A stretch of DNA of 64,000 nucleotides from IMG/VR virus record IMGVR_UViG_3300042484_002457, positions 145,544-209,543 of that record. The stretch is one strand, 5' to 3'. The notes under the pieces were generated by a model. The model made no database searches. It was given only the letters and a program-made list of their open reading frames with translations, and was not told the DNA's origin. Positions 53,687 through 64,000 of this stretch are shown here, in pieces (position 1 is the first letter of the stretch; each line of letters starts with the position of its first letter). This DNA is from a virus. The position numbers and the translations under genes are program-made.

Positions 53687-54857
53687 AAACAACCCCAAAT
53701 TGGGATTTTACACAGTAGGCCAAGAGAAATTTTTCAGCAAGCCCATGGCCTTGATGGAAGCGACAAAAACCAACCAGTTTCCCAAATGGAACTTTAATGA
53801 CGAAGTGTTTGGCACAATTAACTGGCACGATGAGCCTTCCCCTCATATAAATGAGCTATATCGTATTAGAGCACAACAGTTGCGCAACAAGTACGATTAT
53901 ATTCGTTTAGAGTTTAGTGGTGGCTCAGACTCAACTACTGTGTTGTACAGTTTTGTAAATAACAACATTCACATTGATGAAGTGGTTTTTCGTTATCCCA
54001 AGACTGGTGAAAAAAATGTCAACGATGACCCGTTCAACTACAAATGCGAGAACACTTTAAGTGAGGCAAAGTACGCGGCATTTCCAATTCTGAATTGGTT
54101 AACAACAGCTTCTCCACGTACTAAGATTACGTTGCATGACTATAGCGAAGACATGCTCAATAGTTCTTACGATGAATCTTGGGTATATCGTTCTAAAGAT
54201 TATTTTCAGCCCGGACACAGTTTCAAGCATTCTAAAATAGGGCACCATGATCACAAATTGCAAGCAGACTCAGGACGTAATATTTGTATCTTATATGGAG
54301 TAGACAAACCTAAAATTTGTATCAAGGATAGCAAGTGGTATGCGTACTTCATTGACATTATTGCCAATCACTCAGTAACTGATGCTGGAGAGTACAGCAA
54401 TCTTACTACTGAGTATTTTTATTGGAGTCCGGACTTGCCCGAAATGCTTGTAAAACAAGCCCACGTGCTCCGACGTTGGTTTGATCTCCCAGAGAATCGA
54501 ATGTTGCAGTATGTTTGCAGATGGCCCAACTACAGTTACACTCATCGCAATGCGTATGAATCTATTTTGAAACCGTTGATTTATCCTGACTACGATCCTG
54601 CTACGTTTCAAACCAACAAGGCCTCAAACAGTTTTTACAATGAAATGGATTTTTGGTTTTACCAAAACTTCAAAGAAACTCAGCAGTTTAAGATTTGGCG
54701 TGCTGGACTTGACCACCTAATAAATAGCATTGATCCCAAATATTTCAACTACGAAATGAAACAACCTGTGGGCTTTGTGGGATTTATCAGCCCATTCTAT
54801 TATCTTGGTGATGCTAGTTACACAGACACTGGCATCAACTCACACTTTAAATTCTAA
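53673..54857 (+). CDS. PP-loop ATPase paralogue 2
   Basis: 394 residues from ATG 53673. KLGFYTVGQEKFFSKPMALM and YIRLEFSGGSDSTTVLYSF near 73 repeat the plan of paralogue 1; EYFYWSPDLPEMLVKQAHVL is the shared C-terminal block. Overlaps paralogue 1 by 14 bases. Probably arose by tandem duplication. Confidence 0.7.
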   Translation: MIKIENNPKLGFYTVGQEKFFSKPMALMEATKTNQFPKWNFNDEVFGTINWHDEPSPHINELYRIRAQQLRNKYDYIRLEFSGGSDSTTVLYSFVNNNIHIDEVVFRYPKTGEKNVNDDPFNYKCENTLSEAKYAAFPILNWLTTASPRTKITLHDYSEDMLNSSYDESWVYRSKDYFQPGHSFKHSKIGHHDHKLQADSGRNICILYGVDKPKICIKDSKWYAYFIDIIANHSVTDAGEYSNLTTEYFYWSPDLPEMLVKQAHVLRRWFDLPENRMLQYVCRWPNYSYTHRNAYESILKPLIYPDYDPATFQTNKASNSFYNEMDFWFYQNFKETQQFKIWRAGLDHLINSIDPKYFNYEMKQPVGFVGFISPFYYLGDASYTDTGINSHFKF

Positions 54858-54864
54858 GGACCAT

Positions 54865-55773
54865 ATGAAAAAACTTTTAACTATATTATTATTGACATTG
54901 TCGTTGACTGCACACAGTCGAGAAAACGTTACAATTGCTTATAGTTGGGCCGCAAGCGATCCTGCCGCAAACTTTGATCGTGCGATCATCAACGAAGCCA
55001 ACCGTATTCAAGATCGATTTACATTTATTTTTGAAGCAAAGCCAGGCGCTGGTGGCACAGTTGCCGCAAACTTTGCGTTAACTAATGCAAACACAGTACT
55101 AGCAACCAGTTCTGCATTTTTTATTCGTCCCAATTTTTATCCAAACGACAGTCACGACGTTGGTGCCTTTAGAGAGATTATGCCCAAGTGTGTGGTCCCT
55201 GCATTGATCACCAGTGTAAAATACAATCGTTGGCAAGATGTTCCGCATGATCGTTACTTGACCATTGGAGTGAGTGGCTTGGGCACTACTACTCATTTGA
55301 TTGCTGAACAGTTGCGGTTAAAGTACCCAGATATACAAGTAATTCCATTCAAGAGCACTAGCGAAAGTTTAGTAAATATGCTCGCAGGACAAATTGATTT
55401 GTCAGTTAATTTTATTGGTGACGTTGAAAGTTGGGCTCGAGAAAATCACACAAAGAAAACTGTAAATCTATTAGGTGTAACTGGTACACAAACATTTGAA
55501 AATGTTCCTACTTTAATTAGTCAGGGGTTTAGTCCTAACTTGGCGTTTATGAGCCCGCCGCACCAGTACTTGGTTTCTGCCCGCATAGATCAAGGGCGTT
55601 TTCAAGAATTGCGTAGCATTCTTGCAAAGGCTGCAGATACTCCAAGAGTACGTGCGGCTTATTACATTGATCGTTGCCAACCTATAACTATCAAGGATAC
55701 CCAACTAGACCAATACTACCAAGATCAAATTATCAAGTGGAAAAAATTTAGTGCTGGAGTTAAAATTAATTAA
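54865..55773 (+). CDS. tctC: Bug/TctC-type periplasmic binding protein 1
   Basis: 302 residues from ATG 54865 (SD AAGGAC). Signal peptide MKKLLTILLLTLSLTAHS. EAKPGAGGTVAANFALTN is the Bug-family ligand loop; TIGVSGLGTTTHLIAEQL and VNMLAGQIDLSVNFIGDVES are typical. Bug proteins bind dicarboxylates, aromatic acids or amides for tripartite transporters and are abundant in Burkholderiales. No membrane subunit genes lie nearby, so host transporters would be needed. Confidence 0.82.
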   Translation: MKKLLTILLLTLSLTAHSRENVTIAYSWAASDPAANFDRAIINEANRIQDRFTFIFEAKPGAGGTVAANFALTNANTVLATSSAFFIRPNFYPNDSHDVGAFREIMPKCVVPALITSVKYNRWQDVPHDRYLTIGVSGLGTTTHLIAEQLRLKYPDIQVIPFKSTSESLVNMLAGQIDLSVNFIGDVESWARENHTKKTVNLLGVTGTQTFENVPTLISQGFSPNLAFMSPPHQYLVSARIDQGRFQELRSILAKAADTPRVRAAYYIDRCQPITIKDTQLDQYYQDQIIKWKKFSAGVKIN

Positions 55774-55782
55774 GGAATCGTT

Positions 55783-56370
55783 ATGCAACCTTGGACTTAT
55801 ATTGTTTTAAAAGATTTCCCGCTGCCGCCTCGCGATCTACTAGAGCAAATTGATCTATCGCTTACTCCCGAAGTAAACAACACAGGCTATTTGCAAACCG
55901 AACCACTGATCAACTGGAATGGATATTCTGGTCCAGCGGCTCTGAATGTACGTGTATTGTTTAATAACGACTATACTGAATGGTTGAAAAAACATGTTAC
56001 TACTGAATTTGAAAATGCAAGTTTAAATTATGTTACAGGGCCGCCACAAATAAAAACCACAGCACCGCATCGAGATTTTACTCGAGACTACGTGTTAATC
56101 TACAATGTAGATACCGGGGGCGATGATGTTAAATTACAATTTTGGAGGGAAACTGGACACGAAGTTGTTCGCGAGCCCGGTGCGGCTTGCGGGCGCAGAG
56201 CTGATCTTGAACTGTTAGATACGGTATCGGGTCCACCAAATTGCTGGTATCTAACAAATGCTACTATTTTACACAGTACTGATAATATGGTTAGACAGCG
56301 TGTAAATTTACAAGTTAGTTTTAAGCAAGGCAACAAATTTGTAGAAAATATTATAAATCAGCATAAATAA
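55783..56370 (+). CDS. 2OG-Fe(II) oxygenase-like protein
   Basis: 195 residues. TAPHRDFTRDYVLIYNVDTG gives the HxD, and ATILHSTDNMVRQRVNLQVS the distal His and Arg of a double-stranded beta-helix dioxygenase. Substrate unknown. Lies between two binding-protein genes; phage members often hydroxylate proteins or nucleic acids. Confidence 0.65.
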   Translation: MQPWTYIVLKDFPLPPRDLLEQIDLSLTPEVNNTGYLQTEPLINWNGYSGPAALNVRVLFNNDYTEWLKKHVTTEFENASLNYVTGPPQIKTTAPHRDFTRDYVLIYNVDTGGDDVKLQFWRETGHEVVREPGAACGRRADLELLDTVSGPPNCWYLTNATILHSTDNMVRQRVNLQVSFKQGNKFVENIINQHK

Positions 56371-56497
56371 CAATAGCAACGCCAGCAGATGCTGACGTCG
56401 GATTATAAGGACGCATGGGATTGTCCCTTTACTAGATGTCATCTAGAACGCCCACCGTAGCAGACAACTGCAAGCAAAACTCACACAAGGAAAAAAC
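56371..56497 (+). other. structured leader before the DctP-like gene
   Basis: Non-coding stretch with three hairpins: CAGCA-GA-TGCTG, GGGA-TTG-TCCC and CTAGATG-T-CATCTAG. No promoter box is clear. SD AAGGA before the ATG at 56498. Could be a leader or the 3' end of the previous message. Confidence 0.35.
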
Positions 56498-57448
56498 ATG
56501 CAACCTAAATTAGTAAAATGGGTTTTGGCGCACGAGCCCATTGATATTTTTATCAAAGCCGCCGAAAAATTTACCGAAGTCATTGACAAGTTGGCCCCAG
56601 GTCAACTCAAAATAGAAGTTATGACTCTGAGCGAGTACGCAAATCGATACAACAACGGCAAAAAAATTACCAAGCACGATTTATTGCAATTAATGGAAGA
56701 CGATCTCATTGAGATGAGCCAGACATACAGTTATGTGTTAGGTAACAAATACGCACCTGACATGCATGTTGTAGACATGCCTTTTTTATTTCGTGACCAT
56801 GATCATGCTGCCAACGTATTTGAGGGCAAAATTGGTGCTAAGTTGTTAGACAGCTACGGTCATAATAGCAACTTACAAGGTTTAGCGTTTACATATTCGG
56901 GCGGTTTTAGAAATATTCCGTTTAGCAAAAATGTTGCAACACTAAACGACTTGGCCGGAGCTCGTGTGCGGGTGACTTCCAATCCAATTTGCGAAGCAAT
57001 TTTTGAAAGTATTGGTGCTACTCCGGTTACGTTTGATATTGAAGATTTGGCTGATCGCATGGAAGATGGAACTGTAGAAGGCGGCGAAAGCTCGTGGCCA
57101 CGCATTTATGCTTGCCGTCAAAACGAAGTAAGTAATGTAATTTTTGACACCGAACACAATCTGTTGACCACTAATATCATTGCCAACAAACAATGGATGC
57201 AAGGCTTGCCGGTTGAGTTACAAGCCAAAATTAAACAAGCCGCAATTGAAGCGGCACGCCATGAGCGTGACATTAGTGTTGCAGATGTCGAGCGTGTGGG
57301 ATCTCTTGCTCGTGCTGATGGCATTCGTGTTATCAAGTTTTCTGAAGAAGATCAAACTCACTTTAAGAAAGCAACAGAATCAGTTTACACCAAGTTTGAA
57401 GACTACTTTACACCAGGGTTGGTTGACAGCATTCGCACTTTACAGTAA
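56498..57448 (+). CDS. dctP: DctP-like TRAP binding protein without signal peptide
   Basis: 316 residues. KLVKWVLAHEPIDIFIKAAE aligns with the start of the mature domain of DctP proteins; GARVRVTSNPICEAIFESIG carries the R-VR ligand-binding helix, and VEGGESSWPRIYACRQNEVS the second lobe. There is no N-terminal signal and no in-frame hydrophobic extension upstream, so the product should stay in the cytoplasm. It may be a cytoplasmic ligand sink or a repurposed sensor; secretion cannot be expected. Confidence 0.75.
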   Translation: MQPKLVKWVLAHEPIDIFIKAAEKFTEVIDKLAPGQLKIEVMTLSEYANRYNNGKKITKHDLLQLMEDDLIEMSQTYSYVLGNKYAPDMHVVDMPFLFRDHDHAANVFEGKIGAKLLDSYGHNSNLQGLAFTYSGGFRNIPFSKNVATLNDLAGARVRVTSNPICEAIFESIGATPVTFDIEDLADRMEDGTVEGGESSWPRIYACRQNEVSNVIFDTEHNLLTTNIIANKQWMQGLPVELQAKIKQAAIEAARHERDISVADVERVGSLARADGIRVIKFSEEDQTHFKKATESVYTKFEDYFTPGLVDSIRTLQ

Positions 57449-57451
57449 ACT
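57423..57451 (+). promoter_or_regulatory. possible tmRNA promoter
   Basis: TTGACA, 17-base spacer, TAAACT at 57446-57451, inside the end of the DctP-like gene. The -10 box is poor; the position is right for the tmRNA. Confidence 0.4.
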
Positions 57452-57474
57452 ACAGTTTATTGCTGTATGAAGCA

Positions 57475-57725
57475 AAGAGAAAAGGATCCAAGACCCGGGG
57501 GCAGTTCCCGGCATCTCCACCTAAGTGTATGTTGTATATTTAGGTGGGGATGACATAGATATCGATTGGGTCAAGAGTAACAGAGTGGACAGCTCGGCAA
57601 TGTGAAAGCCGTAGGATTGGGGTCTCCCGGTCGTAGAAGCAAAAAACGTAAATGCAAACGACGAACAGTTCGCTTTAGCCGCCTAAACTCGGCTTAGGGT
57701 AGGAAATACCTCGTAACAGAAACCC
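57475..57725 (+). ncRNA. ssrA: circularly permuted two-piece tmRNA
   Basis: Acceptor piece first: GATCCAA (57485-57491), T-stem CCGGG/CCCGG, CATCTCC, A, CC ending 57521. After a 24-base spacer the coding piece starts GGGGATGACATAG (57546). GGGGATG pairs with CATCTCC (one wobble) and TTGGGTC (57566-57572) with GATCCAA, building the tRNA-like domain across the split. The tag frame, resume codon GCA at 57639, reads AKNVNANDEQFALAA then TAA at 57684; helix 5 (CTAA..TTAG) holds the stop in its loop. Permuted tmRNAs are known from some betaproteobacteria, alphaproteobacteria and cyanobacteria. Exact mature ends are uncertain. Confidence 0.9.
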
Positions 57726-57727
57726 CC

Positions 57728-57755
57728 AAAAAGGGGCTTGGCCCCTTTTTCTTTT
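57728..57755 (+). terminator. rho-independent terminator of the tmRNA
   Basis: Perfect 10-bp stem AAAAAGGGGC/GCCCCTTTTT with a 3-base loop, followed by CTTTTT. Confidence 0.9.
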
Positions 57756-57801
57756 TACACCTCTAGTAGAAATAAGTATGTGCCTGTATAGAAATCATCA
57801 A

Positions 57802-58683
57802 ATGAAAAAAATATTATTATCTTTGTTGGCAACGATTTGTGTGTCAGCATCTGCTGACACTGTTCCAACAGATTTTTCAGTCATTGCTCGACTACCAACC
57901 GGAGTATTACCCACACTGTGCCGCAGTGTTTTTGCGGCATACGCTCGGGAATACAAGAGCAACGTCAACATTGTTATCAAGCCCGGAGCTGATGGCATTT
58001 TGGCAGTAGAAGATGTGACGTCGTCGGATAAATTTACTGTGCTCTGTGCTTCATCAACTGAGCTGGTTTTTAACTTTTTTGAATACCCCCAACATGTAAA
58101 GATACACAGCGACCTACAACCGACAAATATTTTATCCACAACCATAGTGTCTTTTACATCTAGTCCCACAAGCAAGTATCAAAATCTAGTTGAATTGATT
58201 GCTGACAAAAAATCTATCACTGTGGGCTTTGCTGGCAGTGCTCACGGGTTCATTGCTAAAAAAATGTTCAACGAAAAACAACTGGTGCTAGTTCCTTTTA
58301 AAGCAGCACAACAGGCAATTCCGTCATTGCTAGACGGAACTCTTGATGTGTATCTGTCTGGCGGCGCATTTGAAGAACTGCACCGAGATGGCAAGCTTAA
58401 ACCAATGGGACATCTGCATGGTCGACCAACATCATTGGGTCCAGCACTGGATCAACATTTTTCCGAGGCATTAAAATTTCCTTCATTTGTTGCTCTGGCA
58501 ATTAGCAAAAAAACATCACCAGATGTTGCAAGAGAATTTAGCCGGCGCATTGCATTGATCATGAAAACACCCGAAGTACAACAAACAATTCAAGATCTCA
58601 ATGGTAACTATACGCCCAACACCCTACAACAGGCCACTGTGTTTGTAGAAAAAATAAAAACTGACGCTAAGAAAAGTTATTGA
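57802..58683 (+). CDS. tctC: Bug/TctC-type periplasmic binding protein 2
   Basis: 293 residues from ATG 57802. Signal peptide MKKILLSLLATICVSASA. VIKPGADGILAVEDVTSSDK is the Bug ligand loop; SITVGFAGSAHGFIAKKMFN and IPSLLDGTLDVYLSGGAFEE follow the family. The SD is weak; an in-frame ATG at 57778 would spoil the signal peptide. Differs enough from the first copy to bind another ligand. Confidence 0.8.
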   Translation: MKKILLSLLATICVSASADTVPTDFSVIARLPTGVLPTLCRSVFAAYAREYKSNVNIVIKPGADGILAVEDVTSSDKFTVLCASSTELVFNFFEYPQHVKIHSDLQPTNILSTTIVSFTSSPTSKYQNLVELIADKKSITVGFAGSAHGFIAKKMFNEKQLVLVPFKAAQQAIPSLLDGTLDVYLSGGAFEELHRDGKLKPMGHLHGRPTSLGPALDQHFSEALKFPSFVALAISKKTSPDVAREFSRRIALIMKTPEVQQTIQDLNGNYTPNTLQQATVFVEKIKTDAKKSY

Positions 58684-59822
58684 TGTTTGATTTTCAAAAT
58701 TTCGAAGACGGACCAAGGCCTACCCGACACGGATTTTACTGTGTAGGGGACAAAAAATTTTACTACAAAGCAAGTGCGTTAGTACATGCATCAACACAAA
58801 AATTGCCAGTGACCTGGGAGTTCAACAATGATGTATTTGCTGAGCAGGTGGCCAAACCAAGGTTGCCAATATCACTGCCAGAGCTGTATCGATTGCGATG
58901 CCAGCAAATAAGAGATCAGTATGACTATGTTATATTGGCCTACAGTGGAGGTGCCGACAGCAATACTATACTCCGGTCATTCCTTGACAACAACGTCAGA
59001 CTGGATGAAGTTTGGTTCGATCAACCGTTTGAGTTTATTGAAAAAAGCAACTATACTCCTACATTATCAACTGATCCTAGAAATCTAGTCAGTGAGTGGT
59101 TTTTTGTTGTCAAGCCAGACTTTGAACAACTGCAAGTATCAAATCCAGAAATAAAAATACACGTATCAGACGCATGTAAAGATCCCAGCATCGAAGACTA
59201 CGAAGATACTTTTCAGCATACATTTGCTTATACCTACAATGGCATCAAACGTTGGAGGTACATGAAAAATTACATTGAAAAATTACAAGAGCGCCACAAG
59301 AAAGTATGTGTTATTTTAGGAACTGACAAGTGCATTACTTTTTATCACCAAGGCAGCTATGGATTTTCTTTTAAGGACAGTCCCACAAATATCAAACACT
59401 CGTTTATTGAATATTTTTACTGGACACCTAGCATGCCAGAAATTGCAGTTCAGCAGGCCTACGAAGTTTGGGATCAGCTGCAACACAATACCAAGTTACT
59501 GGTACAAAAAAAGATGAGTCTCAAAAAAGACCCCAATGATTATATCCGTCGAGATCAGTACGATCAATTTATCAAATCAGTAATCTATCCAACCTGGGAC
59601 CCGAACAGACATCAAGTCGACAAGATGACAATATTTTTAGGCAAAGGCTTCAGTGTATTTGTTGATCGATGGTCGCAAGAACGTTTCTATCAAAGTTGGG
59701 CCAGCAACGTTCAACATACTTTTAAATCCATAGATCCTGCGATGTACACAAACGGGCGAGATCCAACAGATGATTTTAAATCGTTTGCGGTGAACTACAC
59801 GCTTGGTAAAAATTCCACATAA
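58683..59822 (+). CDS. PP-loop ATPase paralogue 3
   Basis: 379 residues from ATG 58683 (TGATG with the gene before). RHGFYCVGDKKFYYKASALV and YVILAYSGGADSNTILRSF repeat the plan of the proteins at 52409 and 53673; EYFYWTPSMPEIAVQQAYEV is the shared block. The three copies alternate with the uptake genes. Confidence 0.7.
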   Translation: MFDFQNFEDGPRPTRHGFYCVGDKKFYYKASALVHASTQKLPVTWEFNNDVFAEQVAKPRLPISLPELYRLRCQQIRDQYDYVILAYSGGADSNTILRSFLDNNVRLDEVWFDQPFEFIEKSNYTPTLSTDPRNLVSEWFFVVKPDFEQLQVSNPEIKIHVSDACKDPSIEDYEDTFQHTFAYTYNGIKRWRYMKNYIEKLQERHKKVCVILGTDKCITFYHQGSYGFSFKDSPTNIKHSFIEYFYWTPSMPEIAVQQAYEVWDQLQHNTKLLVQKKMSLKKDPNDYIRRDQYDQFIKSVIYPTWDPNRHQVDKMTIFLGKGFSVFVDRWSQERFYQSWASNVQHTFKSIDPAMYTNGRDPTDDFKSFAVNYTLGKNST

Positions 59823-59836
59823 AACCATCGTTTTCG

Positions 59837-59866
59837 TTGACTGAACCAACACTTGTACTATATACT
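59837..59866 (+). promoter_or_regulatory. sigma70-type promoter for the porin
   Basis: TTGACT, 18-base spacer, TATACT at 59861-59866; SD AAAAGGAAA before ATG 59911. Confidence 0.7.
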
Positions 59867-59910
59867 TGAGTATGGGCATTTTGTACCATACTTTCAAAAG
59901 GAAATTTTAA

Positions 59911-60792
59911 ATGAAGAAAATTATAATTACAGCCGCTTTGTTGGCTACTTGCGCCCTGGCTTCTGCTCAGACCACTATGTACGGTCGTGTCAACGCCACT
60001 GTTGACAGCACTAAAACTGGTGCTATTCGTGCAGACAGCATTGTCAATGACATCAGTCACATTGGCTTCAGCGTCAAAGAAGACCTCGGAGGCGGATTGT
60101 CAGCTCGTGCTGTGATCGAAACCTCTGTGGCCACCCAAGACCCCACCACTGGTGGCAACACTCAATTGGGCAACCGCCAAAGCACAGTTGGCTTGGCCAG
60201 CAAGTTAGGCAGCATTGATGTTGGCCGCAACGTGCATGGTTTGTTTACCACAGCTGGACAAGGCGACGCTTTTGGTGCATTGTATGGCAGCATCGCTGGA
60301 GATGTTCATGACCTGCGTGGTCTGCGACTCAGCAACGGCGTGTTCGCTCGTGTCAACGGCCCATTGGGTACTACCTTGGGTGCTGATCGTACCTACACCG
60401 CTGCAGGCACAGAAACCACTGTTTACAGTGCAACTGGCAAATTAGGCCCTGTCAACGCTGGCGTGGCTCAATTTGAGCAAGGTGCCGAGAAATCAACTGT
60501 GGTCAGTGCCAGCACCAAGCTTGGCAACACTGGCGTGTTCTACAGCTACAGTGACAACCAAGGTGCTGTTGCTGCCAGAGGCAACCTAGTGGGCGTGAGC
60601 CAGAAAGTCGGTGCTTACACTGTGAAAGCTAGCTACGGTGATACCAACACAGCCGTCAAGGCTTACAACGTTGGCGCTGAGTATGCTCTCAGCAAGCGCA
60701 CTGACGTATTGGTCAGCTATCGCAACGTTGACAAGACTGGCACTGCCAATGACATCAAGCAAGTTGGCGTAGGTGTTACACATCGCTTCTGA
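59911..60792 (+). CDS. Gram-negative porin (Burkholderiales type)
   Basis: 293 residues. Signal peptide MKKIIITAALLATCALASA, then TTMYGRVNATVDSTKTGA, the start typical of betaproteobacterial general porins. Alternating beta strands run to the end (KQVGVGVTHRF), whose terminal Phe is the outer-membrane assembly signal. Shorter than host porins (340-380), with reduced external loops. Codon use looks GC-richer than its neighbours, a sign of recent capture. Own promoter and terminator make it a moron-like unit. Confidence 0.88.
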   Translation: MKKIIITAALLATCALASAQTTMYGRVNATVDSTKTGAIRADSIVNDISHIGFSVKEDLGGGLSARAVIETSVATQDPTTGGNTQLGNRQSTVGLASKLGSIDVGRNVHGLFTTAGQGDAFGALYGSIAGDVHDLRGLRLSNGVFARVNGPLGTTLGADRTYTAAGTETTVYSATGKLGPVNAGVAQFEQGAEKSTVVSASTKLGNTGVFYSYSDNQGAVAARGNLVGVSQKVGAYTVKASYGDTNTAVKAYNVGAEYALSKRTDVLVSYRNVDKTGTANDIKQVGVGVTHRF

Positions 60793-60967: not shown

Positions 60968-61000
60968 ACTAGTATTACTTTAGTATTACATCAACAAAGA

Positions 61001-61027
61001 CCCTGCAACTAGCAGGGTTTTCCTTTT
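61001..61027 (+). terminator. rho-independent terminator
   Basis: CCCTGC/GCAGGG with loop AACTA, then TTTTCCTTTTT. Confidence 0.85.
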
Positions 61028-61032
61028 TGTAG

Positions 61033-61061
61033 TTGACCAGTATTGCACTCAGTGTTATACT
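61033..61061 (+). promoter_or_regulatory. sigma70-type promoter
   Basis: TTGACC, 17-base spacer, TATACT at 61056-61061. Expected start near 61068, directly at the small structured RNA. Confidence 0.75.
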
Positions 61062-61066
61062 AGTGG

Positions 61067-61116
61067 CTTAGTTGGGAAAGACGACAACTGCTCCGGAAAC
61101 GGTAGCACTGCTAAGA
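61067..61116 (+). ncRNA. small structured RNA (three-helix)
   Basis: CTTA/TAAG closes the fold; inside are GTTG/CAAC and GCTCCG-GAAA-CGG-T-AGC, a hairpin with a GNRA tetraloop. It begins where the promoter at 61033 should start and ends just before the next promoter. No protein frame. Not a tRNA; family unknown. Confidence 0.45.
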
Positions 61117-61129
61117 GACACAGCAGCAG

Positions 61130-61158
61130 TTGACAGATATTTCCAACAGTGTTATAAT
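61130..61158 (+). promoter_or_regulatory. strong sigma70-type promoter of the tRNA array
   Basis: TTGACA, 17-base spacer, TATAAT at 61153-61158, an exact consensus. Drives the 61.3-63.3 kb RNA array. Confidence 0.85.
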
Positions 61159-61216
61159 AAACACTTGCAGCAAACGATCGAGTAGCTGTGTAGAATTCCT
61201 TAAAAATTTACTTTTG

Positions 61217-61332
61217 TATAGTGATCCAGATTTAATTCTGGACACTATATGCAAACGCACTAGATCCCTTTTAGCATACGTTCGCCCGGCGCTCTTGTGT
61301 GTTAGATCCCTTTTAGTGCGTTTGCATATAGT
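61217..61332 (+). repeat. nested palindromic element
   Basis: A 13-bp hairpin (61217-61249, one bulged A) overlaps a 19-bp perfect inverted repeat, ACTATATGCAAACGCACTA at 61244-61262 and its complement at 61314-61332. Inside lie two direct copies of TAGATCCCTTTTAG (61261-61274 and 61303-61316) flanking a GC-rich spacer. No protein frame. The left hairpin and the large stem compete for the same bases. Confidence 0.75.
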
Positions 61333-61341
61333 TGAAACTAT

Positions 61342-61426
61342 GCTCGAGTGGTGAAATCGGTAGACACAAGAGACTTAAAATCTCTCGCTGCAAGGTGTGC
61401 CGGTTCGATTCCGGCCTCGAGCACCA
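61342..61426 (+). tRNA. tRNA-Leu(TAA)
   Basis: Acceptor GCTCGAG/CTCGAGC, anticodon stem AGAGA/TCTCT with loop CTTAAAA, long variable arm, T-loop TTCGATT, encoded CCA. Class II Leu tRNA reading UUA/UUG. Confidence 0.93.
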
Positions 61427-61431
61427 AACAT

Positions 61432-61508
61432 GCCCTGGTGACGGAATTGGTATACGTGTTGGTCTTAGAAGCCAAATTTTGGGAGTTCGAGTCTCCCCTG
61501 GGGCACCA
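61432..61508 (+). tRNA. tRNA-Leu(TAG) with collapsed variable arm
   Basis: Acceptor GCCCTGG/CTGGGGC, Leu-type D-arm, anticodon stem TTGGT/GCCAA with loop CTTAGAA (TAG), T-loop TTCGAGT, CCA. The variable region is only about 5 bases (ATTTT) where Leu tRNAs normally have a long arm. Confidence 0.85.
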
Positions 61509-61734
61509 AGATACTAAGATGATACTTAGTAAGATGAGTAGATGGAAACCGACCCGGGAGAGACTTCCCGGGCTTCAGCAGCATCTGAGGTGGCTGACGA
61601 ACGATAGGCAAAGTCGGTCCAGTAGGGGTAAGAAAAGTATCATCAGCGGAAAGAGCTGCTGGAGGACAGAAGTTTGGGCACATCCTCGGAGGGGGTGGTT
61701 AGTCTTAACGCCGTGTAATCCTCTAAGAATTTAT
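61509..61734 (+). ncRNA. unassigned structured RNA domain A
   Basis: GATGATACTT (61518-61527) pairs perfectly with AAGTATCATC (61635-61644). Inside, ACCGAC pairs with GTCGGT, enclosing CCCGGGA/TCCCGGG and CAGC/GCTG hairpins. Downstream, CAGC-GGAAAGA-GCTG and GAGGA/TCCTC form more stems. No convincing protein frame. It lies between two tRNAs and looks like a folded RNA of 110-190 bases. Confidence 0.55.
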
Positions 61735-61809
61735 ACTGGGTTCGTCTATCGGTTAGGACAGCTGGTTTTCAACCAGCCAAGACGGGTTCGATTCCCGTAC
61801 CCAGTACCA
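61735..61809 (+). tRNA. tRNA-Glu(TTC), copy 1
   Basis: Acceptor ACTGGGT/ACCCAGT, anticodon stem GCTGG/CCAGC with loop TTTTCAA (TTC), T-loop TTCGATT, CCA. Confidence 0.92.
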
Positions 61810-61873
61810 AGTTTATGAGTTCGTCTAGAAACCGGTAAATTGTAGTTTGGTCTACAAGCTCGTAATTAATTTT
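61810..61873 (+). other. spacer with hairpin, possible tRNA relic
   Basis: GAGTTCGTCTAGAAACCGG resembles a D-arm region, followed by a TTGTAG/CTACAA hairpin (61840-61857) and GCTC that could pair with GAG(T). It does not fold as a full tRNA; a decayed tRNA is one reading. Confidence 0.3.
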
Positions 61874-61948
61874 GCCATAGTAGTCCTCGGGGAGGGCAAC
61901 GGATTGTCTATCCGTACCAGGTGGGTTCGAGTCCCATCTATGGCGCCA
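61874..61948 (+). tRNA. tRNA-Asp(GTC), copy 1
   Basis: Acceptor GCCATAG/CTATGGC, anticodon stem ACGGA/TCCGT with loop TTGTCTA (GTC), T-loop TTCGAGT, discriminator G, CCA. Confidence 0.92.
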
Positions 61949-61950
61949 AT

Positions 61951-61997
61951 ATATTCGAACTCTGCTAAATACTATGGTATTAGATGGAGTTCGATAT
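61951..61997 (+). promoter_or_regulatory. SD-sequestering hairpin with late promoter in the loop
   Basis: ATA(T)TCGAACTC (61951-61962) pairs with GAGTTCGATAT (61987-61997), covering part of the GGAG and the AU of the start codon. CTAAATA at 61965-61971 lies in the loop; RNA started from it lacks the left arm. So array read-through RNA should be silent and late RNA active. Confidence 0.6.
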
Positions 61998-62472
61998 GAA
62001 AAAAGTTTGTCCCAAATGCGGCACATTACATGAAAAGAATGGTAATTTTTGCTCAAGAAGTTGTGCAAATTCCAGGTCCTGGACTGTTGATGCAAAGCAG
62101 AAAAAAAGTAAAGCATTGAAGAAATTCATTGCAGAAAACCCAATCTGGGAGGAGCAGCGCCTTGCTGCTATGCCCAAAATGATTGAAAATTTGAAACAAA
62201 CTTTGCTTGAAAAAAACAACCTTAGGTTTTCTGAAGGAAAAATAACAAGCAGAGAAGCCATTAAGAAACAACTAATTGCATTACACGGAGAAATCTGTAG
62301 CGTATGCAGTCTTAGTGCTCATTGGCATGGGCACTTCTTATCGTTGCATGTTGATCATGTTGATGGTAATAGTAAAAATAATATGCCAGATAACGTTAGA
62401 CTACTGTGCCCAAATTGTCATAGTCAGACTGATACGTATGCTGGAAAGAAGCATAGAAAGATTAAGATCTAA
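61996..62472 (+). CDS. HNH endonuclease in the tRNA array
   Basis: 158 residues from ATG 61996 (GGAG 7 bases upstream). KVCPKCGTLHEKNGNFCSRS is an N-terminal zinc finger; CSVCSLSAHWHG, SLHVDHVDGNSKNNMPDNVR and LLCPNCHSQTDTY form a Cys-HNH core. Unlike the two other HNH proteins here. Placed between tRNA-Asp and tRNA-Tyr with its own late promoter. Confidence 0.85.
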   Translation: MKKVCPKCGTLHEKNGNFCSRSCANSRSWTVDAKQKKSKALKKFIAENPIWEEQRLAAMPKMIENLKQTLLEKNNLRFSEGKITSREAIKKQLIALHGEICSVCSLSAHWHGHFLSLHVDHVDGNSKNNMPDNVRLLCPNCHSQTDTYAGKKHRKIKI

Positions 62473-62562
62473 ATTAGATCCACCAGTTTTATAGGAGAGT
62501 CGCTGCGAAGCGAATTCTTAAACGACCCGTAGAACTCCCGGGCGTCCTGTAGTTAGTATTTT
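62473..62562 (+). other. short structured spacer
   Basis: TCGCT-GCGA-AGCGA (62500-62513) is a GNRA-capped hairpin, enclosed by GGAG and CTCC. No gene seen. It separates the endonuclease from tRNA-Tyr. Confidence 0.4.
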
Positions 62563-62648
62563 GGAGTCGTAGGAAAATTGGTAACCCCAGTGGACTGTAA
62601 ATCCGCCGCCCTAGTGCATTGCTGGTTCAACTCCAGCCGGCTCCACCA
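62563..62648 (+). tRNA. tRNA-Tyr(GTA)
   Basis: Acceptor GGAGTCG/CGGCTCC, anticodon stem GTGGA/TCCGC with loop CTGTAAA (GTA), class II variable arm, T-loop TTCAACT, CCA. Confidence 0.92.
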
Positions 62649-62653
62649 ATTTA

Positions 62654-62729
62654 GGTCTTAAAGTGTTCATGGACGCACGATGGCTTGTCACGCCATAAGA
62701 GTGGGGATCGTTACCCCCTAAGACCGCCA
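62654..62729 (+). tRNA. tRNA-Asp(GTC)-like, copy 2, unusual T-loop
   Basis: Acceptor GGTCTTA/TAAGACC, D-stem GTGT/GCAC, anticodon stem ATGGC/GCCAT with loop TTGTCAC (GTC), discriminator G, CCA. T-stem TGGGG/CCCCC has one mismatch and the loop is ATCGTTA (A54, T58, A60). Confidence 0.8.
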
Positions 62730-62732
62730 AGT

Positions 62733-62942
62733 TTTGAAAGTGTCAGCAAGTGAAGTCACGTTATGCAGTATTCTTCGAAGGTACTGAGTAATAGAAGGCA
62801 AGCGGGTTCGACTCCCGACCGATCGGAAGATCGGTGTAGCATGGTTACCACGCTGGATGAATCCCAAGTGACGTACCGAACCCCGTCCGGACTTGTTAAA
62901 TCGGGTGAATGGTGCCTATAACAGGGTGGCACTACTTTCAAA
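62733..62942 (+). ncRNA. unassigned structured RNA domain B
   Basis: TTTGAAAGTGTC (62733-62744) pairs with GGCA-(CTA)-CTTTCAAA (62928-62942), a 12-bp closing stem with three bulged bases. Inside are ACCGATC-GGAA-GATCGGT (62818-62835), CAGTA/TACTG and a T-arm-like CGGG-TTCGACT-CCCG. About 210 bases, no protein frame, no tRNA cloverleaf. Confidence 0.6.
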
Positions 62943-62951
62943 TTCAACAAT

Positions 62952-63029
62952 GGGCTGTGACTGTGTAAATGGCTAACAGCAACCAGTAACTCTGGTTGGT
63001 CAGCGGTTCGACTCCGCTACAGTCCACCA
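62952..63029 (+). tRNA. tRNA with anticodon AAC (Val?)
   Basis: Acceptor GGGCTGT/ACAGTCC, D-stem CTGT/ACAG, anticodon stem AACCA/TGGTT with loop GTAACTC, T-loop TTCGACT, CCA. The anticodon is formally AAC (Val), rare in bacteria because of A34, and position 37 is T. The amino acid is uncertain. Confidence 0.75.
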
Positions 63030-63035
63030 ATTTTT

Positions 63036-63110
63036 GTCGCATTAGACTTCTGGTGAGGTCATCACCCTTTCAAGGTGACCAGACGGGATCGTAACCCGTA
63101 TGCGACTCCA
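63036..63110 (+). tRNA. tRNA-Glu(TTC)-like, copy 2, unusual T-loop
   Basis: Acceptor GTCGCAT/ATGCGAC, D-stem GACT/GGTC, anticodon stem TCACC/GGTGA with loop CTTTCAA (TTC), T-stem ACGGG/CCCGT with loop ATCGTAA (A54, T58, A60), discriminator T, CCA. Confidence 0.8.
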
Positions 63111-63200
63111 TTGATAAACACACTCACAGATCCGCCCGAGTAGTAAGGGAGACAGCGACTAACCGTTGAAGGACTGTTTAAAAGTGTGTTTTTCAATGGG
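63108..63200 (+). ncRNA. unassigned structured RNA domain C
   Basis: CCATTGA-T-AAACACACT (63108-63124) pairs with AGTGTGTTT-T-TCAATGG (63184-63200). Inside, ACAG(A)TCC/GGACTGT carries CCC/GGG and CAGCG/CGTTG hairpins. The closing stem uses the CCA of the tRNA before and the first bases of the tRNA after, so tRNA processing and this fold compete. Confidence 0.6.
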
Positions 63201-63299
63201 AGTGTTGCTAATACTGGCCTAAGGGCGAGATTTATATCCTCGTAAGCACCGTCTAGATAAGGCGGCGAATGTGGGTTCAATTCCCACCACTCCTACCAA
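63199..63299 (+). tRNA. class II tRNA with anticodon TAT
   Basis: Acceptor GGGAGTG/CACTCCT, anticodon arm CGAGA/CCTCG (last pair A-C) with loop TTTATAT (formally TAT), variable-arm stem CCGTC/GGCGG, T-stem GTGGG/CCCAC with loop TTCAATT, CCA. The body looks like a Leu tRNA; TAT would read the Ile codon AUA. Identity uncertain. Confidence 0.7.
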
Positions 63300-63300
63300 T

Positions 63301-63489
63301 TAAACTGATCAGCCTGCGTCTAAAACTCAATGACGATGGGCCCAACTACCGGGGACACCTGTTACTCCACTGCCTCTGGGGATTAAGTTACCAGACTGCT
63401 AGTCACAGTTGTGCTATGTTGGTGGAAGGAAGTGAGCGCAGAGATGCGTTCAGCACCTTTAAACGCAGGGTAGTAGGCGGATCAGTTTA
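63301..63489 (+). ncRNA. unassigned structured RNA domain D
   Basis: TAAACTGATC-A-GCC (63301-63314) pairs with GGC-G-GATCAGTTTA (63476-63489); the helix continues TGCGT-C-TAAA with TTTA-A-ACGCA. Inside are GAGCGCA-GAGA-TGCGTTC and GACT-GCT-AGTC hairpins. A frame of about 100 codons crosses it but starts inside a tRNA and has no SD, so I take it as RNA. From 63490 to 63675 I see nothing definite. Confidence 0.6.
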
Positions 63490-63675
63490 TCCAAAACTGT
63501 TTGACAAGCAAAGAAGTTTGTCTTACAATAGATACTTACTTGATATTGTTGAGCACATTAGGAGTTTGTCTGGGAACCAGTAGAGTAATCTATCCAGAAC
63601 GGAGCAACGTGGGCAAGTTGGTTCTTGCTACGCCGACAGTGTGTTCAACAATATGAAGTTTGGTAAAATTAGTTG

Positions 63676-63704
63676 TTGACAAGTTCAGCAGTTGATGTTA
63701 CAAT
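63676..63704 (+). promoter_or_regulatory. sigma70-type promoter
   Basis: TTGACA, 17-base spacer, TACAAT at 63699-63704. Expected start near 63711, with no start codon and SD in the right place downstream. Confidence 0.75.
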
Positions 63705-63710
63705 AAGATT

Positions 63711-64000
63711 CCGGGGCAGTTTAATGTCCTACTAGGCAGCTTGCTGTCTAGTGAAGAATAACTGTGGTGACACAGCCAAAGGAGGTATGCCTACATAACT
63801 CCGCCAGCAATGGTTCGTTTAGACAAGCCTGCTCAGATCCGCGAGGATCCCTTCACTGATAAGACCGGTGGAGGTAACAATGACGCTGGATGTTGTGGAA
63901 AGAATTAGTGGCTCAAGCGCCTGCAAGGGTAACGCAAGTCATTAGAGAGTAACAGGTGGTGCTGACCTCACAACAAAACCAGTCCAGTTAATTGGTATGA
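63711..64000 (+). ncRNA. start of a large structured RNA (runs off the window)
   Basis: A chain of hairpins: ACTAGGCAG-CTTG-CTGTCTAGT (63731-63752), CTGTG-GTGA-CACAG (63762-63775), GGAG-TATG/CATA-CTCC (63781-63802) and GATCC-GCGA-GGATC (63836-63849). Two have GNRA loops, a sign of tertiary contacts. No protein frame. Position beside phage tRNAs recalls GOLLD RNA, but identity is unproven and the 3' part is outside the window. Confidence 0.5.

Follow-up and report, generated by a model that had tools for sequence, protein, structure and literature searches.

Homology and covariation point to a truncated GOLLD 5' domain behind a phage tRNA island

The end of the window belongs to a GOLLD RNA

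The window, which is the whole stretch of 64,000 nt analysed here, represents bases 145,544-209,543 of the 209,543-bp viral contig G000 (IMG/VR IMGVR_UViG_3300042484_002457), and its base 64000 is the last base of this contig, where the assembly stops. We are almost certain that positions 63711-64000 (plus strand) hold part of a GOLLD RNA, namely the first two-thirds (~290 of ~425 nt) of its 5' ("cap") domain. With the promoter, the location where a tRNA island ends and the large phage included, the complete reading, a GOLLD RNA of ~880-900 nt with its own promoter of which this portion of the 5' domain is present, is also held with high confidence. It is based on homology, on conserved secondary structure and on the fixed place that the domain takes in relatives, where a bona fide GOLLD 3' domain follows it. 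The copy is an additional representative of a known family and is cut by assembly; the rest of the RNA is absent from G000 because the assembly ends at 64000. The original prediction had proposed the 5' part of a large non-coding RNA, possibly GOLLD-like, without an open frame, and both parts of this proposal stood: no ORF of >35 aa and no tRNA occurs at 63711-64000, and the GOLLD model RF02032 matches at a fixed distance downstream in related contigs, as described below.

Rfam analysis of the window itself gave no such match. At gathering thresholds, cmscan of the window returned nothing at 63711-64000, and when 61000-64000 was searched to E<=5, only tRNAs or overlapping tRNA-like genes were matched and none at 63711-64000; models of ROOL, OLE, HEARO and other large Rfam RNAs also had no match in this region to E<=5. 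The rest of contig G000 was searched with RF02032 in case the 3' half was located at the other end, and no match was obtained. RF02032 comprises 416 positions and represents the GOLLD 3' region only. The window therefore scores nothing with this model because the contig is truncated and the model covers the 3' region alone, and a GOLLD 5' fragment is invisible to it. It had been suggested that a clean miss of the GOLLD model would point to a new RNA; for the reason given, this conclusion does not apply.

Homologues are followed by the GOLLD 3' domain

Out of nearly 600 matching stretches in IMG/VR, 80 contigs were retained, whose DNA polymerases are 82–88% identical to that of the phage. In the relative G013 (L034; 364,404 bp), positions 63753-64000 are found at 83% identity, after which the sequence continues, and directly downstream RF02032 matches over its full length (positions 1-416, 204 bits; the relative is also given as L099). 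Further homologue loci were gathered with two DNA patterns. Homologues of the stretch occur in ~100 loci in viral contigs, at 67–100% identity. An exact pattern across promoter and domain start was found in no other contig, and an exact 18-mer had 19 scattered matches in GTDB genomes. Blastn against INPHARED, near and distant, with the J region or the complete 5' domain yielded no relevant match, and INPHARED isolates were reached by the 3' domain only.

The GOLLD-model search that had been proposed for the bases downstream could be answered in relatives, as G000 ends at 64000. RF02032 was present in 48 of the 50 homologue records searched (46 above the gathering score) and in none of 14 control genomes. 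All 48 matches were on the same strand and started 121–139 nt past the position equivalent to 64000, which identifies the stretch as the 5' domain of GOLLD. In homologues this domain is 410–436 nt long, and the total GOLLD length in relatives is 874–903 nt, apart from three shorter cases. That Rfam gave no match here even when the threshold was relaxed to E<=5 would also fit a new large ncRNA that is unrelated to GOLLD and resembles it in context by chance. However, in nearly all records GOLLD follows on the same strand and with fixed spacing, and the two without a match, L123 and L106, are truncated at the window's own last base. An unrelated RNA is thus already refuted for the relatives, and for the window we regard it as extremely unlikely.

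The end of L123, the start of L106 and the end of the window are the same base. Three contigs ending exactly at the equivalent of 64000 could mean that the GOLLD gene of the window phage is a remnant, truncated or interrupted at this position. Against this, the sequence common to the window and L106 consists of exactly the last 127 bases, beyond which the two diverge, and these 127 bases are also found in further contigs, which run on normally. Such a pattern is the signature of an assembly-graph junction. We infer a junction with k = 127 inside a conserved RNA gene, at which three contigs stop at one base because the last 127 bases are common to strains. A remnant is accordingly given hardly any weight, and the copy is read as an assembly-truncated GOLLD.

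Covariation supports the structure of the domain

The stretch was originally described as a succession of perfect hairpins, two of them with GNRA tetraloops, and this description was borne out. Folding and alignment place a 10-bp hairpin 1 at 63730-63753. Hairpin 2 (5 bp, 63762-63775) carries the GNRA loop GUGA at 63767-63770, hairpin 3 occupies 63781-63802, and hairpin 4 (5 bp, 63836-63849) carries the GNRA loop GCGA at 63841-63844. All five pairs of hairpins 2 and 4 covary, as does the closing stem of hairpin 3, and both loops remain GNRA in 48/48 homologues. A 9-bp hairpin with the loop AUAAGAC (63850-63874; folding and alignment) is followed by a long branched stem at 63877-63996, in which 63877-63898 pairs with 63968-63996 and which encloses hairpins at 63906-63944 and 63953-63964. 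All these elements are on the plus strand.

By folding energy alone, the stretch stands out only mildly (z = -1.94; 5 of 200 shuffles equally good). In the 5'-domain alignment A2 (48 sequences; the window row is partial), the consensus structure has 111 pairs, 72 with compensatory changes, and 98.7% of the alignment cells are paired. Double-change cells numbered 839, compared to 242 ± 14 in shuffles, and fell to 62–98 when partners were slid by one to three columns. Of the pairs, 73 lie wholly within the window, where all are canonical, and 53 of them show a compensatory double change in relatives. It is this covariation, not the folding energy, that decisively establishes the structure as real.

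As the 5' and 3' regions of GOLLD are separately folding domains with different evolutionary rates (PMC12286853), the 5' domain might be a separate RNA gene that neighbours GOLLD and is transcribed or processed apart. The spacing of 121–139 nt is, however, nearly constant and filled by covarying helices up to the 3' model, and columns 83-84, close to the start of the domain, are predicted to pair with columns 458-459, although this pairing hardly varies. In addition, GOLLD env-38 is a single chain, with its 5' region at residues 1-420 (PMC12286853). We therefore consider a separate gene very unlikely and treat the domain as the 5' part of one GOLLD RNA.

Promoter and tRNA island

The promoter that had been predicted to feed the hairpins was identified as a sigma70-type sequence at 63676-63704 (plus strand; TTGACA-17-TACAAT, 11 of 12 consensus positions) with an extended -10 (TG before the -10 element) and a predicted transcription start at ~63711. 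Close relatives, among them L201, L182, L114 and L099, have a similar promoter 14–19 nt ahead of the point where the domain begins. A promoter with a score of at least 11/12 occurred within 60 nt upstream in 16 of 51 non-redundant homologues, compared to 12 of 2000 random segments. In many other homologues no such promoter was detected, and tRNA-like sequence reaches the domain start; GOLLD may therefore be processed out of a tRNA precursor in these cases. Another, upstream promoter is located at 63501-63529 (plus strand). The surrounding stretch 63486-63538 is 92% identical to the one that drives GOLLD in G013, so that in the window a small structured element (63530-63665) and a second promoter intervene between this upstream promoter and GOLLD.

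The tRNA-associated context that the original prediction had compared to GOLLD was confirmed as well. A tRNA island with an HNH endonuclease ORF (61342-63298, plus strand) lies directly upstream and contains genes for Leu, Leu, Glu, Asp, Tyr, Asp, Glu and an Ile-like tRNA; the ORF at 61984-62472 is a putative HNH endonuclease, named from its translation. A location beside tRNAs and an HNH gene is typical of GOLLD (PMC12286853, PMC6582537), and the phage origin beside tRNA genes that characterizes the family is found in the window.

Comparison with isolates and published GOLLD RNAs

Full RF02032 matches, all above the cut-off, were obtained in three isolates, Phaeobacter phage MD18 (170 bits), DSS3_MAL1 (161 bits) and Xanthomonas phage XacN1 (227 bits). 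Two covariance models were used for comparison, R2 representing the first ~85-nt core of the domain (window 63751-63835) and R1 the inner branched part (window 63827-64000). R2 gave the top match in the 5' region of the GOLLDs of MD18, DSS3_MAL1 and XacN1 (rough E-values of 0.0006, 0.002 and 0.08), at 337–368 nt upstream of the 3' domain, where ~385 nt would be expected for the window type. R1 had no match in these three GOLLDs. The isolates thus share with the window type, weakly but in register, the ~85-nt core near the domain start, whereas the inner branched stem is unrecognisable. Across GOLLDs, the beginning of the 5' domain is probably widely shared and more widely conserved than the interior, which appears to diverge; the published GOLLD 5' region is likewise the less conserved one (PMC12286853). 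A tRNA in the linker is annotated as Arg in the marine isolates MD18 and DSS3_MAL1, while none was found in XacN1.

GOLLD RNAs are characterized as non-coding RNAs of >800 nt with a universally conserved 3' region and a variable linker in which a tRNA sometimes occurs. Judged by the published description, the window type resembles env-38 and the RF02032 GOLLDs in having a ~420-nt 5' domain followed by a conserved 3' domain, a location in a phage tRNA island, a (pseudo-)tRNA in the linker of relatives and a total length of ~880–900 nt. It differs in that the interior of its 5' domain was recognised only in these environmental phage contigs and is unmodelled by Rfam, and in that the window copy is cut before the 3' domain. 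Mycobacterial GOLLD, also compared by description, shares with the window type the setting in a tRNA cluster that includes an HNH endonuclease, and the presence of a pseudo-tRNA, but its location is a bacterial chromosome; no expression of the mycobacterial pseudo-tRNA was detected (PMC6582537). As Rfam annotation sees only the 3' half of GOLLD, a covariation-backed 5' model with ~100 variants makes 5' fragments recognisable.

Linker pseudo-tRNA and possible function

ARAGORN identified a tRNA in the 3'-domain linker of 36 of 44 relatives. Among these 36 were 22 Asn (21 GTT, 1 ATT), 12 Lys (TTT or CTT), 1 Ile and 1 unclear case, and only one of them ended in CCA. Of the eight ARAGORN-negative linkers, inspected by eye, seven contained a tRNA-like stretch, with a GTT anticodon loop in six cases and a TTT loop in one, and the eighth contained none. 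An Asn (GTT) or Lys (YTT) anticodon is thus present in ~40 of the 44 relatives, a count that applies to this group only and to loci that are not independent. The existence of a GOLLD pseudo-tRNA is already known from the mycobacterial work cited above.

A rise in expression during lysis is counted among the traits of GOLLD RNAs. In the window phage, the RNA would be transcribed from its own promoter at 63676-63704, at the end of the tRNA island. GOLLD is among the very few natural RNAs known to form protein-free cages, and the cryo-EM structure of env-38 is a closed 14-mer RNA nanocage (PMC12286853). By analogy with env-38, such a 14-mer would have two caps made of 5' domains and rings made of 3' domains, with the linker inside (PMC12286853). 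That the RNA of the window phage forms a cage is, on this analogy, rather probable. As to the role of a cage, our likeliest guess, a tentative one, is that it may hold back or display RNA or parts of the translation machinery late in infection. Since the linker pseudo-tRNA is almost always Asn or Lys in this group, the question of a cargo is testable. We assign a low probability to the idea that the cage is built round a mostly CCA-less pseudo-tRNA which, enclosed in it, would act as a decoy for, or trap, anticodon nucleases of the host or tRNA-processing enzymes; an example of an anticodon nuclease is AriB of PARIS, which cleaves tRNA-Lys (PMC11455837).

Other structured elements in the window

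A second structured RNA, referred to as RNA D, is located between tRNAs at 62728-62945 (~212–232 nt). It had no Rfam match to E<=5, a weak overlapping tRNA-like match ending before D, and no convincing match in INPHARED; homologues were found in at least 120 viral (phage) contigs. Its structure comprises 46 pairs, 32 of them compensatory, with 136 double-change cells compared to 38 in shuffles, and holds a T-arm-like GGGTTCRANNCCC hairpin. GOLLD was present in one of 35 further D-bearing contigs, indicating that D occurs mostly independently of GOLLD. RNA D appears to represent a new family of RNAs carried by environmental phages.

Three more elements, at 63299-63491, 63108-63199 and 63530-63665, are closed by long near-perfect stems and have no Rfam match; ~9, 6 and a few related loci were found, respectively. 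Strong folding (-71 and -22 kcal/mol) was also observed at 61509-61734 and 62473-62562, both between tRNAs and with few homologues.

The tRNA-Ile-like gene at 63196-63300 was missed by ARAGORN and scored 41 bits with Rfam. Two readings are open to it, Ile(GAU), in which the D arm would be very long, and Ile(UAU), in which the variable arm would be long; Klebsiella phage KP13-26 has a 72% match to it where nothing is annotated. At 62946-63030, a tRNA-like gene with CCA but without a normal D arm gave a weak match to a tmRNA model (18.8 bits). A permuted (two-piece) phage tmRNA is located at 57461-57686 (115.7 bits); a tmRNA also occurs in the relatives G012, G013, G015 and G024, and near GOLLD in MD18, DSS3_MAL1 and XacN1.

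Judging from translations, the products of predicted genes in 54775-60792 resemble solute-binding proteins of the TctC and DctP types and, at 59911-60792, a porin of betaproteobacterial type; these genes suggest a betaproteobacterial host.
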